Both the position numbers and the translations under genes were made by a program. From a virus: 22,631 nucleotides of DNA. The notes beneath the pieces were generated by a model that was given only the letters and a program-made list of their open reading frames with translations, did not search any database and was not told the origin of the DNA. Shown one piece after another: positions 1,873 to 16,275 of this stretch; the first letter of the stretch is position 1; each line of letters begins with the position of its first letter. The stretch spans positions 1-22,631 of the IMG/VR virus record IMGVR_UViG_3300032294_000463; one strand, given 5' to 3'.

Positions 1873-2493
1873 TCATAATAGTTTCCTATTTTTTATGTAT
1901 TCAACTTTATTAGGCATCCATTCTTCCAACAATTTATCAGATTTTGAACAGTTGCATTTTGCACAACTAATTGCCAAATTGTCTAAATTATTGTCACCAT
2001 TATTCTTAATGGCTAGTACATGATCTAAGTGGTATGCCTGCTCACTAATTTCAGTGTTGCAATATTCACAAGTAAAATTGGGCTTGTGAAATGTGTTTAT
2101 ATTATAGCTTTCCAACGCCACTATTGAAGAAGTTTCTAATTTTATTAAATTTGCTTGCCTTTTTTTACGGGTATGTGTTTTTGATTTTTCACAAGCTCTA
2201 TACTTATCTGGATTATTAGCTATCCAAAGTTTAACGTATTCTTTTCTCTTTAAGTATCTTAATGTTTTTTCATACTGGGGTAGTCTTTTTCTTCTTTCTT
2301 TTTCTTGTAAAAGTTCTTTTTCTTTTACCCCAGGTTTTTTTCTATAGACTCTTCGCCTTTCATTTTGACAATATTTACATTCAGATTTATACCCATATTT
2401 TGCATTGCCTTTTCTGTAAAATTTAAAATCATAGTATTTTTGACAAGTATTGCAAACTCTACCAGTCACATCTTCGGGTATAGTGTATTTCAT
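1873..2493 (-). CDS. HNH endonuclease, probably free-standing homing type
   Basis: The protein has 206 residues. The N-terminus has paired cysteines (CNTCQ near 14-17 and CKYCQ near 39-42) that look like a zinc-binding module. The middle is very rich in Lys and Arg and probably contacts DNA. The C-terminal part is an HNH/McrA-like nuclease with CEYCN, then YHLDHVLAIKNNGDNNLDNL and SCAKCNCSKSDK: the H-D-H core, the conserved Asn and a second CxxC zinc pair. Such genes in T4-like phages are usually self-spreading homing endonucleases inserted between phage genes. It heads a separate transcription unit behind a terminator and promoter-like hairpins. Its TGA overlaps an ATG (1876) in frame with the glycosyltransferase. 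Its composition looks more A/T-rich than the replication genes (by eye), as expected of a mobile gene. The flanking genes are not halves of one gene, so it is not intron-borne. Confidence 0.85.
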   Translation of the reverse strand: MKYTIPEDVTGRVCNTCQKYYDFKFYRKGNAKYGYKSECKYCQNERRRVYRKKPGVKEKELLQEKERRKRLPQYEKTLRYLKRKEYVKLWIANNPDKYRACEKSKTHTRKKRQANLIKLETSSIVALESYNINTFHKPNFTCEYCNTEISEQAYHLDHVLAIKNNGDNNLDNLAISCAKCNCSKSDKLLEEWMPNKVEYIKNRKLL

Positions 2494-12106: not shown

Positions 12107-12688
12107 ATGGATATTAAGTCGATAATAAAAAATGTTTTAGCCCAACGGCTAGAAGAGAACGTACAAGTCCCCCAATTACCTAAAGTTAAGGATACTAATG
12201 ATTATGTTAAGTACCTAGCCGAAGCGATTCAATACCGATTAGACGAGCTAAAAATTAATAAAGATATCAACCGTGCCGAAGTTAAGAGAATGAAAACGGC
12301 TGGTGTTTCTAAGGGAGCTAGAAGAGAATTTACTAAAGATGACGTATCAAGAGCAGAAAAAGATAAAGAAATTAAAACGGCTCAAAGAGGGACCACAAAA
12401 GGACCTTCCAATCGAGAACGAGGATATGAAAGAGGGACTACCTCTCCAAAAGCAGGAATAGCAAAAGCTAATGCAGAGGGAAAGGCCCAGACACCCCCAT
12501 TATCTAAAGATCAAATAAATAAAATGGGAGTTGGTGGTAAAAAAAATGCAGCGGGTCAAAGCAAAGAAAAGAATCTTAATCGGAAACTAAGAAAAATAAG
12601 TGCAAATACCGGAAAACTTCTTGGTTCATTAGCGGATAAAGAAGGTGGCTCAGGGAGAAACCCTAAAAATAAAGGTGGCGGCCTGTGA
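12107..12688 (+). CDS. Very basic, low-complexity protein of unknown function
   Basis: The protein has 193 residues. A short helical N-terminal part (1-55; IIKNVLAQRLEENVQ, then YVKYLAEAIQYRLDELKI) is followed by about 135 residues dominated by Lys, Arg, Gly, Ser and Asn with no hydrophobic core, so the tail is probably disordered and could bind DNA. It ends in a glycine-rich KGGGL. I know no family for it. Its TGA overlaps the GTG start of the next gene (GTGA, 12685-12688), so the two are a coupled pair on the plus strand between minus-strand blocks. A packaged, DNA-associated virion protein is a reasonable guess but unproven. Confidence 0.75.
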   Translation: MDIKSIIKNVLAQRLEENVQVPQLPKVKDTNDYVKYLAEAIQYRLDELKINKDINRAEVKRMKTAGVSKGARREFTKDDVSRAEKDKEIKTAQRGTTKGPSNRERGYERGTTSPKAGIAKANAEGKAQTPPLSKDQINKMGVGGKKNAAGQSKEKNLNRKLRKISANTGKLLGSLADKEGGSGRNPKNKGGGL

Positions 12689-13299
12689 AAACTATCAAAG
12701 AAAGATTAATTGAGATGATAGTCGAAAGGTGCTGGAAAGGATACAAACCAGTCCCCGGTAAGAAGCCTTATTCAAAAGGGTCTTGCAAGTCAGTTAATGA
12801 AGGGTATACTACAGGTAAAAATGCTAAGGCCACAGGTTCTCGCGTAGGTGCTGCTTCTAAGAGTATGCAATCTGGTGAGACATCTACCAAAAAGTCTCCT
12901 GAGCAAGTTAAGAAACAAGTTACCTCTATCAAGGATAGAATCCAAAAGAGACATGGTGACGCGGGTGTAGGAAAATTCTTTGACGGGTATCGCTCAGTTA
13001 AGCCCAGAGGTTCAAGAGCTAAGATAAAAGAAGGTAAGACTCCTGCTTGGCAAAGAAGCGAAGGGAAAAACCCTGAAGGTGGACTAAATGCTAAAGGTAG
13101 AGCTTCGGCCAAGGCTCAAGGACACAATCTTAAACCACCCGTCTCAGCGGAACAGGCTAAGAAGTCCGATAAGTCTGCTGCCCGGAGAAGGTCATTTTGC
13201 GCGAGAATGTCCGGGCACAAAAGAAAGAATACTTCCTCAAAAACTGCCAATGATCCAAACTCAAGAGTTAATAAAGCCTTGAGAAAATGGGACTGTTAG
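12685..13299 (+). CDS. Basic phage protein with a DUF6321-like C-terminal domain
   Basis: The protein has 204 residues and starts at GTG in a GTGA overlap with the upstream gene. Near the N-terminus it has CWKGYKPVPGKKPYSKGSCK, a motif I have seen in many phage proteins (CWxGY...KGSC). The C-terminal 85 residues run TPAWQRSEGKNPEGGLNAKG, then LKPPV, RRRSFCARMSGHK and KALRKWDC, matching from memory the pattern of the DUF6321 family of marine phages. Function is unknown. The composition is strongly basic, again suggesting DNA or RNA contact. The N-terminal MKTIKERLIEMIVE is an amphipathic helix reminiscent of T4 capsid-targeting peptides. The stop TAG overlaps the TAA of the minus-strand polymerase gene (13296-13299). 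Confidence 0.8.
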   Translation: MKTIKERLIEMIVERCWKGYKPVPGKKPYSKGSCKSVNEGYTTGKNAKATGSRVGAASKSMQSGETSTKKSPEQVKKQVTSIKDRIQKRHGDAGVGKFFDGYRSVKPRGSRAKIKEGKTPAWQRSEGKNPEGGLNAKGRASAKAQGHNLKPPVSAEQAKKSDKSAARRRSFCARMSGHKRKNTSSKTANDPNSRVNKALRKWDC

Positions 13300-14372
13300 T
13301 TAATATGGTATTCTTCTCCTGATCCGAAAGAATCCCCTACCATAACTTCAATTTCTAGCGGGACAGAAAACGTGATACCAAAGTTTTCTTTGATGTAGGG
13401 GTACTCGGTCATATGATAGTGAAGCAATCGGATTGTTTCATCCACTTCAGAATCAGGGGCTATTAGCTCTAGGCTGTCATGGACAGTAGCGACAATTTTG
13501 GATTGCATCTTACGCTTCTTTAGTTCTTGATGCAGTCCTAGCATACAGCAAACTAGTGTATCACTTGCAGATGACTGTACGGTAAAATTCAGTCCCTGTC
13601 TAAATGCTTGCTCTCTAATATACTTAGCCTCAGATGCAGCATTAGGTAGATTGCGACGGCGACCAAAAATAGTGTAAGCATATTTGTTTCTTTTGATGAA
13701 GTCATCAATATGGTCCATGTATCTTGGAACTCCAGGGAAAGCCGCCATCCAACCTTCAATGATACCCTTGGCCTTCTTGAAGCTGATGCCCTGCTTCATC
13801 GCTAGAGTCTTCTCTGTGCCTCCGTACACCGTCAAGAAGCTCACAGCCTTGGCAATCTGACGCTCTTCCTTTGTCACCTTGTCCATGGGCTTACCGAACG
13901 TCATAGACGCTGAGTAAGTATGTAGATCCATGCGCTCATTGAACGCTTTAGCCATGTTCTTCTCCTTGGCTAAGTGAGCTAGGACTCGCAGTTCCATGGA
14001 CTTCATATCCGCAGTAATAAACTTATGGCCCTTTGGAGCTACAACATAATTGCGGATATTAAACTTGGATTCTCTAGGCAGGGTATGGAATGAAATGCCC
14101 ATACTATTATTCCCTACGCTATACCCTGCATTAGATAAGCGTCCGGTTACCGTACCATCAAGTCGATACTCCACGAAGATCTTGTTGAATCCATTATACT
14201 TAATGGCTTCCTTTACACCCGTAATATAGGTGTCATGTAGCTTTTTAGATCTACGGAATTCTAGCAAAGACTTAATGAAGCTGTTAGCACCAAGTATCTT
14301 CTCGTTGCTTAAGCTTGTGATTACAGATCGTGAGATCTGCTTTTCGTGATCTAGCTTCTCAAACCTATTCAT
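13296..14372 (-). CDS. DNA polymerase family A, palm/fingers piece (third of three)
   Basis: The protein has 358 residues and carries the polymerase active site: RLDGTVTGRLS (about 70-80), motif A ADMKSMELR with D122, motif B R171-x3-K175-x7-YG (RQIAKAVSFLTVYGG), and motif C TVHDSLEL with H298-D299. The usual HDE has become HDS, so the second acidic residue is missing at that spot, a change also seen in some phage enzymes. It lacks the 3'-5' exonuclease and most of the thumb, which are encoded by the two frames upstream. Its ATG overlaps the end of the middle piece by eight bases (ATGAATAG, 14365-14372), with a +1 frame change. Thus the active polymerase would be an assembly of separate chains, unless the breaks are sequence errors. 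Confidence 0.92.
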   Translation of the reverse strand: MNRFEKLDHEKQISRSVITSLSNEKILGANSFIKSLLEFRRSKKLHDTYITGVKEAIKYNGFNKIFVEYRLDGTVTGRLSNAGYSVGNNSMGISFHTLPRESKFNIRNYVVAPKGHKFITADMKSMELRVLAHLAKEKNMAKAFNERMDLHTYSASMTFGKPMDKVTKEERQIAKAVSFLTVYGGTEKTLAMKQGISFKKAKGIIEGWMAAFPGVPRYMDHIDDFIKRNKYAYTIFGRRRNLPNAASEAKYIREQAFRQGLNFTVQSSASDTLVCCMLGLHQELKKRKMQSKIVATVHDSLELIAPDSEVDETIRLLHYHMTEYPYIKENFGITFSVPLEIEVMVGDSFGSGEEYHIN

Positions 14373-14874
14373 TGAGTCCTCGCTTGTCTATCTCGTCTTG
14401 CAGTTGTTCTAATAGAATATCTAATGCTTCTGCGCTTGTACTAGCCGCCCCAGTCTTTTCCGAAGAGATTGGAGGGTAAAGCCCAAAGCCACCCTCTACT
14501 ATGTTGCCCTTTTTATCGCATGAGAACAATACCTTGATTAGGTCATCAGTAGAAGTAAGCTCATAAATTTTATTTACTTGCTTGAAGGAATATAGCTTAT
14601 CTTCTTTCTCATGGATATCCTCTCTCAGTTGAGTAGCAAGCTCGTCTACAGTCTCCTCAGAGATTAATAGACCATCAAGCTCCATGTCCTTAAATAGCTC
14701 CACAGCAGGCACCATGAGCCTATCATAGAGATTGGACATCTTAAGATCCGCAATACTCTTCTCAAGTTTGCGAAATATCTTAAGAGTGAAATACGCATCG
14801 AGAGCGTTGCCTCTAGCCATCAGGCCTAGCGGCATGTTCTTCCAGTCAGTTTTTCTCCCGTCTTGGCCTAACAT
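14365..14874 (-). CDS. DNA polymerase family A, middle piece: Exo III and thumb region
   Basis: The protein has 169 residues. The N-terminus supplies the third exonuclease motif (RGNALDAYFT, D26), the part missing from the piece encoded upstream. It continues with LMVPAVELFKDMELDGLLIS, a standard family A lead-in to the polymerase domain, and later STSAEALDILLEQL, the start of the thumb. It cannot be catalytic alone. Its ATG overlaps the TAA of the first piece by one base (TAATG, 14872-14876), a classic reinitiation junction and a -1 frame change. I see no slippery heptamer there. It ends 8 bases inside the palm piece. The three frames together make one complete polymerase in the correct order. 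Confidence 0.85.
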   Translation of the reverse strand: MLGQDGRKTDWKNMPLGLMARGNALDAYFTLKIFRKLEKSIADLKMSNLYDRLMVPAVELFKDMELDGLLISEETVDELATQLREDIHEKEDKLYSFKQVNKIYELTSTDDLIKVLFSCDKKGNIVEGGFGLYPPISSEKTGAASTSAEALDILLEQLQDEIDKRGLNE

Positions 14875-15899
14875 TAGATAATGCTCATCTCACCTGGGAA
14901 GTAGTACTTGCAGAGGTCCGAAAGGCTCTTCGGGAGATTTTCATCAATCATGTGTTGCATAAGTTTGGTGTCGTAAATGTTTACGATGTTTGGCATTCCG
15001 TGCCTAGAAAGAAACTTAGTGTCGAACTGAGCCTTATGAAAGATCTTCTTGGTCCCCTCATTGGTGAAAATTTTATTCAACGTGGTCTGTACATGAGACA
15101 TCCACTTGTCCGGTTGGTTAAATTCTTTGTGATAGACAGGAATAATGAATGTCTTCTGACCGGATGTTGAGTCGAATGATAGAGCTATAGTTTGAATCTC
15201 ATCCTTGATGAAATCAAGGCCTGTGGTTTCAATATCGACTGCAACGTCACAATCTACATATCTCTCTAACGAGGTTAGCTCGCTTATCGTGAAGATAAGC
15301 TCCCACGCAAATTCAGATTGCGTATTGGTTTTTGTGTAGTGTAGCTCAATAGCATTCTGGATGTCCAGGCCAAACAGATACTCATTCTGAGGCTCCACTA
15401 TTACCTGATAAGGGTGGTAAATTGCTACAACAGGAATGCCGTTGTAATCAAAAGACTTCCCTCGCTTATCCATGATACCAGATTTCTTTGTAAGCATAAC
15501 CATAGGAAGGTTACCACACACAAAGATTAGTTTTGGATTGCAGGATTTAATTGTAGCTGCGATGTGGGCGCGGCAAATATCCTTATCATCCTTGGTCATG
15601 TCCTTATCTTTTACAGATGGGCACTTGACCGCTGCCGTGTACTCTATGGCGGGGATAAGATGGCTTAATCCCAACTTGGAGAGAGTATCTTCAATTAAGT
15701 TCTGCTCCTTGGATGAAAATGGAGTCAATTCCCCAAATTCTAACTTAAAGGACTCTGACACAAATAAGATTTCACACTGTTTATTGAACCCTTCCTCCTC
15801 ATGGTCCATAATCGAGTGGCAAATCTTACTCTTATCGAGAATAGTGCAGCCTTGGCACCCACTATTTAAAGATTTAAATGGGTCTGGTATAATCCGCAT
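14874..15899 (-). CDS. DNA polymerase N-terminal piece: UDG-like Fe-S domain plus Exo I/II
   Basis: The protein has 341 residues. The first 165 look like a family 4 uracil-DNA glycosylase: C15-x2-C18, then C93 (AVKCP) and C109 (DICRA), the spacing of its 4Fe-4S ligands, and YHPYQVI at the end. The catalytic GEAPG loop is replaced by SESFK, so glycosylase activity is unlikely. The same UDG-like fusion is known in SPO1 polymerase. The second half is a DnaQ-like 3'-5' exonuclease with Exo I VDIETTG (D222, E224) and Exo II FHKAQFDTKFL (D293). It stops at FPGEMSII before Exo III. There is no Shine-Dalgarno sequence. A TATAAT ends only three bases before the ATG. It is transcribed divergently from the sigma-like gene, 13 bases away. 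Confidence 0.88.
   Translation of the reverse strand: MRIIPDPFKSLNSGCQGCTILDKSKICHSIMDHEEEGFNKQCEILFVSESFKLEFGELTPFSSKEQNLIEDTLSKLGLSHLIPAIEYTAAVKCPSVKDKDMTKDDKDICRAHIAATIKSCNPKLIFVCGNLPMVMLTKKSGIMDKRGKSFDYNGIPVVAIYHPYQVIVEPQNEYLFGLDIQNAIELHYTKTNTQSEFAWELIFTISELTSLERYVDCDVAVDIETTGLDFIKDEIQTIALSFDSTSGQKTFIIPVYHKEFNQPDKWMSHVQTTLNKIFTNEGTKKIFHKAQFDTKFLSRHGMPNIVNIYDTKLMQHMIDENLPKSLSDLCKYYFPGEMSII
15888..15893 (+). promoter_or_regulatory. TATAAT -10 element for the sigma-like gene
   Basis: The plus strand reads GGTATAATCCGCATAC, ending 19 bases before the proposed GTG at 15913. A second candidate, TATTAT at 15902-15907, would make the mRNA leaderless. There is no -35 box. It lies inside the 5' end of the polymerase gene on the other strand. 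Confidence 0.35.
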
Positions 15900-15902
15900 A
15901 CT

Positions 15903-15908
15903 ATTATA
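15903..15908 (-). promoter_or_regulatory. ATATAATAGTA -10 element before the polymerase gene
   Basis: The minus strand reads AAATATAATAGTATG. It shares TATAATAGTA with the sites at 16893 and 19896. Only three bases separate it from the ATG at 15899, so the transcript would have no leader, or the true start site lies a little further upstream. Confidence 0.4.
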
Positions 15909-15912
15909 TTTT

Positions 15913-16275
15913 GTGTCTAATTATCTTGATAACAAGAAATTTGAAAGCTTAATAAAGCTTCATTGCTCGGGAAATTACGAATCTCAAGATGAGCTAATGG
16001 GATGTTTCGACATCCTAATCTCCAACATCATAGACGCCTTTCACTTTAAAGTGGACAAAGAAGACGCAAAACAGGATTGTTTCCTGCTTATACTAAAGAC
16101 TTTACGCAACTTTAATCCGGCGAATGGGTCTGCGTTCAATTACTTTACGACCGTTATAGTTAACAACTTGAAGTTAGTTGCAACTAAGATAAAGAGACAC
16201 AGATTAAAGTTGGAAGCTTATTATGAACACAAGCACGGGGTGAGGTTGAATCACCCTGATACTAGTTCGTGCTGA
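15913..16275 (+). CDS. 55: Late sigma factor, T4 gp55-like (short)
   Basis: The protein has 120 residues from GTG 15913 (an ATG at 15997 would give 92). The recognisable part is sigma-70 region 2-like: EDAKQDCFLLILKTLRNFNP then GSAFNYFTTVIVNNLKLV, which matches the core-binding and -10-recognising helices of T4 gp55 and its cyanophage relatives, followed by a basic helix (KIKRHRLKLEAYYEHKH). T4 gp55 has 185 residues and directs late transcription at promoters with only a -10 TATAAATA. The short form here would also read just a -10 box, consistent with the TATAAT sites lacking -35 boxes in this window. There is no Shine-Dalgarno sequence before the GTG. The 3' end overlaps the convergent gene by 25 bases. 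Confidence 0.65.
   Translation: MSNYLDNKKFESLIKLHCSGNYESQDELMGCFDILISNIIDAFHFKVDKEDAKQDCFLLILKTLRNFNPANGSAFNYFTTVIVNNLKLVATKIKRHRLKLEAYYEHKHGVRLNHPDTSSC

Follow-up and report, generated by a model that had tools for sequence, protein, structure and literature searches.

How is a DNA polymerase made when its gene is broken twice, one of the breaks falling inside the exonuclease fold? The question is raised by the virus record IMGVR_UViG_3300032294_000463 of IMG/VR, a stretch of 22,631 bases referred to here as the window, in which a DNA polymerase of family A is encoded by three overlapping minus-strand genes, p1, p2 and p3 (Table 1). An earlier reading of the window from its letters alone (the sequence-only reading) had placed the three frames and their two junctions, J1 between p1 and p2 and J2 between p2 and p3, and these proved exact to the base; its remark that the two frame shifts cancel also holds, p1 and p3 sharing a frame. 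As it likewise noted, no slippery heptamer was seen at J1 or J2 of the window upon inspection by eye. The open overlap preceding the starts of p2 and p3 amounts to a few codons, five each in a near-identical relative (L001). Based on a survey of relatives, on structure models and on precedent, we suggest, with a probability of roughly 0.85, that p1, p2 and p3 are separately translated subunits, produced via translational coupling, of a heterotrimeric replicative family A polymerase.

Conservation of the split and variation of its junctions

IMG/VR was scanned with p3, p2 and p1, and the forward frames of the loci found were searched with profiles. Each scan returned its best 80 loci, so that intact genes among more distant relatives are possible; most scan patterns lay inside the pieces and off the junctions (e.g. 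EERQIAK, motif B), and intact genes would therefore have been met too. The survey gave 105 non-identical p2-bearing loci from many metagenomes, with p2 identities from 99% down to about 33%. p1 and p2 were separate open frames in all 99 loci holding both (0/99 fused), and no fusion of p2 with p3 was found among the 105. In addition, relatives at 98–99% identity, from independent assemblies, had junctions near-identical to those of the window. The sequence-only reading had cautioned that paired single-base errors must be excluded, and had named relatives with an intact gene as an observation that would overturn the split. Sequencing or assembly error is now excluded, because 105 non-identical loci keep the split, and intact homologues were met only outside the clade. 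The tripartite architecture is a stable, conserved design.

The three pieces are under purifying selection and share a common history. Ratios of non-synonymous to synonymous polymorphism (pN/pS) were 0.14–0.32 for p1, p2 and p3, with synonymous sites near-saturated, and the pairwise distances of the three pieces correlated with r of 0.91–0.94 over 51 loci (p1 versus p2, r 0.92). A maximum-likelihood tree built on the palm region grouped 20 tripartite members in a single clade (support 98/99) and kept them separate from the remaining sequences sampled, both phage and cellular. Cellular or prophage relatives were considered and rejected, the matches in genome contigs being only 24–31% identical.

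Within the clade, both junctions vary. At J1, p1 and p2 overlap by 1 nucleotide (nt) in 61 of 98 clade loci and by 7–17 nt (7, 14 or 17) in five, while in L005 and L009 a 42-nt spacer with in-frame TAG and TAA lies between them. Inserted genes occupy J1 in 31 of the 98 loci, 25 of them antisense and six sense. Many antisense inserts encode a short lipoprotein-like protein, others proteins of the NSYDRIYNLL/ESIWDTYR type; the sense inserts include an HNH endonuclease in L056 (PF13392, 4.9e-10). In a further locus, L014, additional to these 31, a 271-residue gene separates p1 and p2. At J2, the overlap is 8 nt in 62 of 105 loci and 4 nt in 19; more than 100 nt lie between p2 and p3 in seven, six of which hold another gene there. 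This gene, at the boundary between the thumb and palm genes, encodes a deoxynucleoside monophosphate kinase in L098 (phrog_139, 1.3e-25), L107 and L238 and a kinase-like protein in L228, with other genes in L219 and L304. In L083, an interruption lies within the p2 frame. J1 and J2 thus behave as gene boundaries. A conserved slippery site and a fixed frame relation, by which a programmed-frameshift gene would be recognised, were not found in the clade, where junctions vary and can hold genes. A homing endonuclease was also considered as the general cause of J1 and rejected: L056 was the only HNH case among the inserts scanned, most of which are antisense genes of other kinds. J1 accepts inserts of diverse kinds, and the HNH endonuclease of L056 makes a homing-endonuclease origin of the split conceivable.

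The antisense inserts go together with a TA-rich box. CTATNATATATAG or a similar sequence stands directly before the p2 ATG in 25/25 loci with an antisense insert, compared with 0/6 with a sense insert and 0/67 without one (0/73 otherwise); the pattern was widened after inspection of the sequences, and these exact frequencies are descriptive. A TATNATA box likewise lies upstream of 42 of 52 clade p1 starts, against a background of 1.8%. We read the TA box as a putative promoter, which would make p2 an independent gene in the antisense-insert genomes. Its placement, from which transcripts would be almost leaderless, resembles a T4-type late promoter consisting of a −10 element only. The box is near-palindromic (TATWATAG / CTATNATATATAG) and lies few bases from start codons in L059, L069, L080, L081, L082, L088, L117, L142, L138, L084 and others; in these relatives it falls within bases −15 to −1 before the p2 ATG, and its window counterpart precedes p1 (Table 1). 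Divergent from p1, the window also carries a plus-strand frame at 15472–16275, likely coding from about 15900, with a match to Sigma70 region 2 that is under the cut-off (PF04542, E 0.0045). Its product might be a late sigma factor resembling gp55, and the TA boxes would then be its targets.

Folds divided by the two cuts

p1 matched two Pfam families, the uracil-DNA glycosylase (UDG) superfamily (PF03167, above cut-off) and DNA_pol_A_exo1 (PF01612), and p3 matched DNA_pol_A (PF00476, 1.6e-76). p2 matched no Pfam family; its sole family match was the DNA polymerase family phrog_17 (2e-10), and the order of the profile places p2 between p1 and p3. An AlphaFold2 model of p1, built with 48 sequences, reached a mean confidence (predicted local distance difference test, pLDDT) of 86.6. 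In this model, residues 9–191 superimpose on a family 4 UDG (4zbx; Z 17.4, root-mean-square deviation [rmsd] 3.0, 170 residues aligned) and residues 194–341 on Klenow residues 324–472 (Z 13.9, rmsd 2.7, 143 aligned). The end of p1 therefore matches Klenow residue 472; the Exo III aspartate, Klenow Asp501, follows about 30 residues later and aligns with D26 of p2. J1 falls in the loop that follows Klenow residue 472 and precedes the last exonuclease helix, a position inside the exonuclease domain, as the sequence-only reading had proposed from the position of Exo III in p2.

The four DEDDy carboxylates are invariant (D222, E224 and D293 of p1 in 64/64 sequences; D26 of p2 in 58/58). As they are divided over p1 and p2, the exonuclease site would need two chains. 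The position of Klenow Tyr497, the DEDDy tyrosine four residues before the last aspartate, is Gly22 in 58/58 p2 sequences, so that p2 departs from the DEDDy pattern; a tyrosine is kept there in SPO1, MW202455, Emalyn, L017 and D69. The assignment of RGNALDAYFT in p2 as Exo III by the sequence-only reading thus stands for the aspartate; the missing tyrosine had escaped that reading.

The UDG-like domain of p1 lacks motif 1 of family 4, GE(G/A)PG, and has SES/SDS-type residues in its place (alignment with 1ui0 and clade alignment). Cysteines C15, C18, C93 and C109 are invariant in 48 sequences, with a cluster-like spacing that we take to be that of the iron-sulphur cluster cysteines of family 4 UDG, and a structural iron-sulphur site in this domain is possible. 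The domain is probably structural.

The model of p2 (pLDDT 83.5) places residues 70–159 on the thumb of Taq polymerase (residues 450–527; Z 7.2, rmsd 2.1, 78 aligned), a modest match for a helical piece. p3 aligns with Taq from residue 519 onward, beginning at about its residue 23. J2 lies in a lengthened part of the thumb, and both cuts thus fall within folded units. The sequence-only reading had allotted the UDG-like domain with Exo I and II to p1, Exo III to p2, and palm and fingers to p3; these assignments hold, with the refinement that p3 also carries part of the thumb. The second cut is inside the thumb, not between domains, which goes beyond that reading. The family A palm and fingers residues of p3 (D122, R171, K175, F179, Y183, H298, D299) are invariant in 67/67 sequences. 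What sets the clade apart from the usual single family A polypeptide of thumb, palm and fingers is the division of the thumb between p2 and p3 in 105/105 loci, a matter of gene layout and not of homology.

Table 1. Positions in the window of the three polymerase genes, their junctions, motifs and upstream box
Feature	Coordinates	Strand	Description
p1	14874..15899	-	341 residues; UDG-like domain (about residues 9-191) and N-terminal part of the 3'-5' exonuclease with Exo I and Exo II
p2	14365..14874	-	169 residues; C-terminal exonuclease helix with Exo III (D26) and N-terminal part of the thumb
p3	13296..14372	-	358 residues; remaining thumb, palm and fingers
J1, p1/p2 junction	14872..14876	-	TAATG stop/start; 1-nt overlap; -1/+2 frame
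J2, p2/p3 junction	14365..14372	-	ATGAATAG start/stop; 8-nt overlap; +1 frame
Exo I motif DIE (D222, E224 of p1)	15228..15236	-	Invariant in 64/64
Exo II aspartate (D293 of p1)	15021..15023	-	Invariant in 64/64
Exo III segment GNALD of p2	14797..14811	-	G22 (Klenow Tyr497 position) to D26 (Asp501); G22 and D26 invariant in 58/58; Klenow alignment
p3 motifs	within 13296..14372	-	Motif A D122; motif B R171/K175/F179/Y183; motif C H298-D299
Promoter-like box TATAATAG	15901..15908	-	One base before the p1 start codon; from sequence

A putative heterotrimer and its alternatives

In the heterotrimer that we propose, a single message would be read by termination–reinitiation at TAATG and ATGAATAG to give p1, p2 and p3; some relatives would express p2 from a promoter of its own. 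The three chains would fold together without covalent joining. The polymerase active site would come from p3, which also holds part of the thumb; p2 would complete the thumb and add the last exonuclease helix with the Exo III aspartate; and p1 would give the other three exonuclease carboxylates together with the UDG-like domain. Assembly, polymerase activity and proofreading of p1–p2–p3 are inferences, for which T4-related phages offer precedents: the separate chains gp43A and gp43B of phage 25 are purified together and have polymerase activity, and Aeh1 has a split NrdA with full activity (PMC2988022).

The translational coupling proposed by the sequence-only reading agrees with the start/stop overlaps and with Shine-Dalgarno sequences of at least four bases before 82% of p3 starts (background 30%); for p2 the signal is weak (53% versus 30%), and this part of the proposal is less well borne out. 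The weak p2 signal counts against the heterotrimer, even though, set beside the strong one of p3, it would fit reinitiation at TAATG. Two further points weigh on the same side. Proofreading without the DEDDy tyrosine may be slower, may proceed via another group or may be absent; and as the relatives' records are fragments, there is a small chance of a second polymerase encoded outside them. PF00476 matched once in each of the five longest (73–111 kb) of ten clade records, and no family B polymerase (PF00136) was found in the ten.

A tentative extension of the heterotrimer makes proofreading a separable unit: p1 binding and release would switch the enzyme between proofreading and non-proofreading forms, p2–p3 staying a polymerase throughout and the DEDDy tyrosine being dispensed with. 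We consider this rather doubtful. Less likely still, p2 and p3 would constitute the polymerase, while p1 would be a UDG-like/nuclease protein apart from it or a transient binder, so that the exonuclease would be no stable part of the enzyme. p1 is indeed a gene of its own with a promoter-like box, other genes can separate it from p2, its conservation is below that of p3, and the Exo III tyrosine is lost. Against a separate p1, the invariant carboxylates, three in p1 and one in p2, are best understood as members of one shared site, the divergence of p1 parallels that of p2 (r 0.92), and the exonuclease fold is incomplete in p1 alone, its last part being absent.

Rejoining of the pieces at the RNA or protein level is improbable in the extreme. 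Splicing, by a group I intron in cis or trans or by a split intein, has precedents in the annotated intron of the homologous SPO1 polymerase gene and in a phage PolB reported with a split intein (PMC6892783), but the coding overlaps of 1–8 nt at most junctions leave no room for intron or intein, and the inserts are ordinary genes on both strands. Moreover, no Rfam intron matched at the gathering threshold in the window, L005, L014, L035 or L013, a weak argument given that the intron-like stretch of L013 went unmatched as well. Programmed ribosomal frameshifting or stop readthrough, which would fuse the pieces into one chain, is just as hard to credit. The common frame of p1 and p3 and the few-base overlaps in many genomes would suit it, but apart from the missing heptamer, frames and spacings vary between relatives, the spacer of L005 and L009 has two in-frame stops, and 31 loci hold antisense or sense genes at J1, with the promoter-like box of p2 behind the antisense ones. 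The varying junctions, the inserted genes and the TA box before p2 exclude frameshifting, readthrough and single-base error as general explanations. Faulty sequencing or assembly, or a pseudogene in decay, as two cancelling frame changes might suggest, can be set aside in view of the 105 loci from many metagenomes, the near-identical junctions of independently assembled close relatives, the low pN/pS and the retention of all tested catalytic residues.

The split phage polymerases found in our searches consist of two chains, and in several the split is linked to a homing endonuclease, an intein or an intron. In the present clade, which is large and apparently uncultured, the only replicative polymerase recognised has three genes as its fixed arrangement. 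The heterotrimer reading suggests that both a proofreading exonuclease and a thumb can be divided between chains and be maintained so over deep divergence, and J1 and J2 are natural places to break the chain when split family A polymerases are engineered. In automatic annotation, p2 will be overlooked, as it has no Pfam match, and p1 and p3 will be labelled as separate enzymes.

Lineage and known split polymerases

The Gp23 major capsid protein (PF07068) was found over the cut-off in nine of ten relatives' records. No capsid gene was seen in the window, where a contractile tail sheath gene is present. Among isolates, the capsid matches with the best coverage reach about 26–38% identity, and no isolate polymerase among the matches listed exceeds about 34% identity to p3; because of these low identities, we take the clade to be an uncultured, deep T4-like (gp23-bearing) lineage of bacterial viruses. 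It is perhaps among those called Far-T4 (PMC4360716), a paper in which the word "split" does not occur. A search for the clamp (PF02916) gave no match, and its control was equally silent. Other window genes encode a DnaB-type helicase, SSB, SbcC/SbcD-like proteins, ribonucleotide reductase and ThyX. A DUF6321 protein (PF19846, 9.9e-18; 12685–13299, plus strand) is convergent with p3 and overlaps its end by a few bases, and a free-standing HNH/endonuclease VII-like gene lies at 1873–2493 (minus strand; phrog_1035, 3.1e-24). One clade member, L245 (UViG 2716884398_000001; 130,604 bases), has an identifier unlike the metagenome form and could reveal a host.

Among T4-related phages, Aeromonas phages 25 and 44RR encode their replicative polymerase in separate genes as well, gp43A and gp43B (PMC2988022); non-covalent assembly is reported for phage 25, and the junction is occupied by a homing endonuclease or by untranslated sequence. 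That polymerase belongs to family B, is in two pieces and occurs in few phages, whereas the present system belongs to family A, is in three pieces fixed across a large clade, and is cut through the exonuclease active site. Rhodothermus phage RM378, which is of the gp23 type and has about 130 kb, resembles the clade in having a polymerase exonuclease as its own gene, but this exonuclease is of family B (PF03104, 2.7e-14). As a phage with a split polymerase it was considered as a relative and rejected, its first 50 kb showing neither a p1 nor a p2 homologue.

In MEP401 and MEP402, phages of OM43 (PMC10580990), a family A polymerase is encoded in separate genes with a small gene between, an arrangement kept in most relatives. 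Unlike here, there are two genes, the exonuclease is whole in the first and the cut lies before palm motif A; no UDG-like domain was seen in the sequence examined. L017, in which p1 stands apart and p2 and p3 are fused, was considered as an intermediate and rejected, since its cut follows the exonuclease domain with Exo III in the first gene and is thus a different split.

An exonuclease cut like J1 occurs in Vibrio phages D69, D181 and D148 (L013), with one gene for the UDG-like domain and Exo I/II, another for Exo III, thumb and palm, and a different gene between them. Unlike in the clade, the D69 polymerase has no J2 cut, keeps the Exo III tyrosine and has its palm interrupted by an intron-like stretch. 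Small open reading frames lie in this stretch (L013, 1704–5583), and the region is annotated as two DNA polymerases and several hypothetical proteins. Given its long branch and uncertain placement in the tree, the J1-like cut of D69 may be either shared or independent. SPO1 gp31 and the polymerase of MW202455 have the same order of UDG-like, exonuclease and polymerase domains and are homologous over all three pieces, but hold p1 and p2 in one gene and have the tyrosine; the SPO1 gene has an annotated intron in the palm, and the MW202455 protein keeps the canonical UDG motif. A three-gene family A polymerase was not described in the collections and papers searched. Split phage polymerases as such were already known; to these, the clade adds a real, conserved tripartite phage polymerase of family A.

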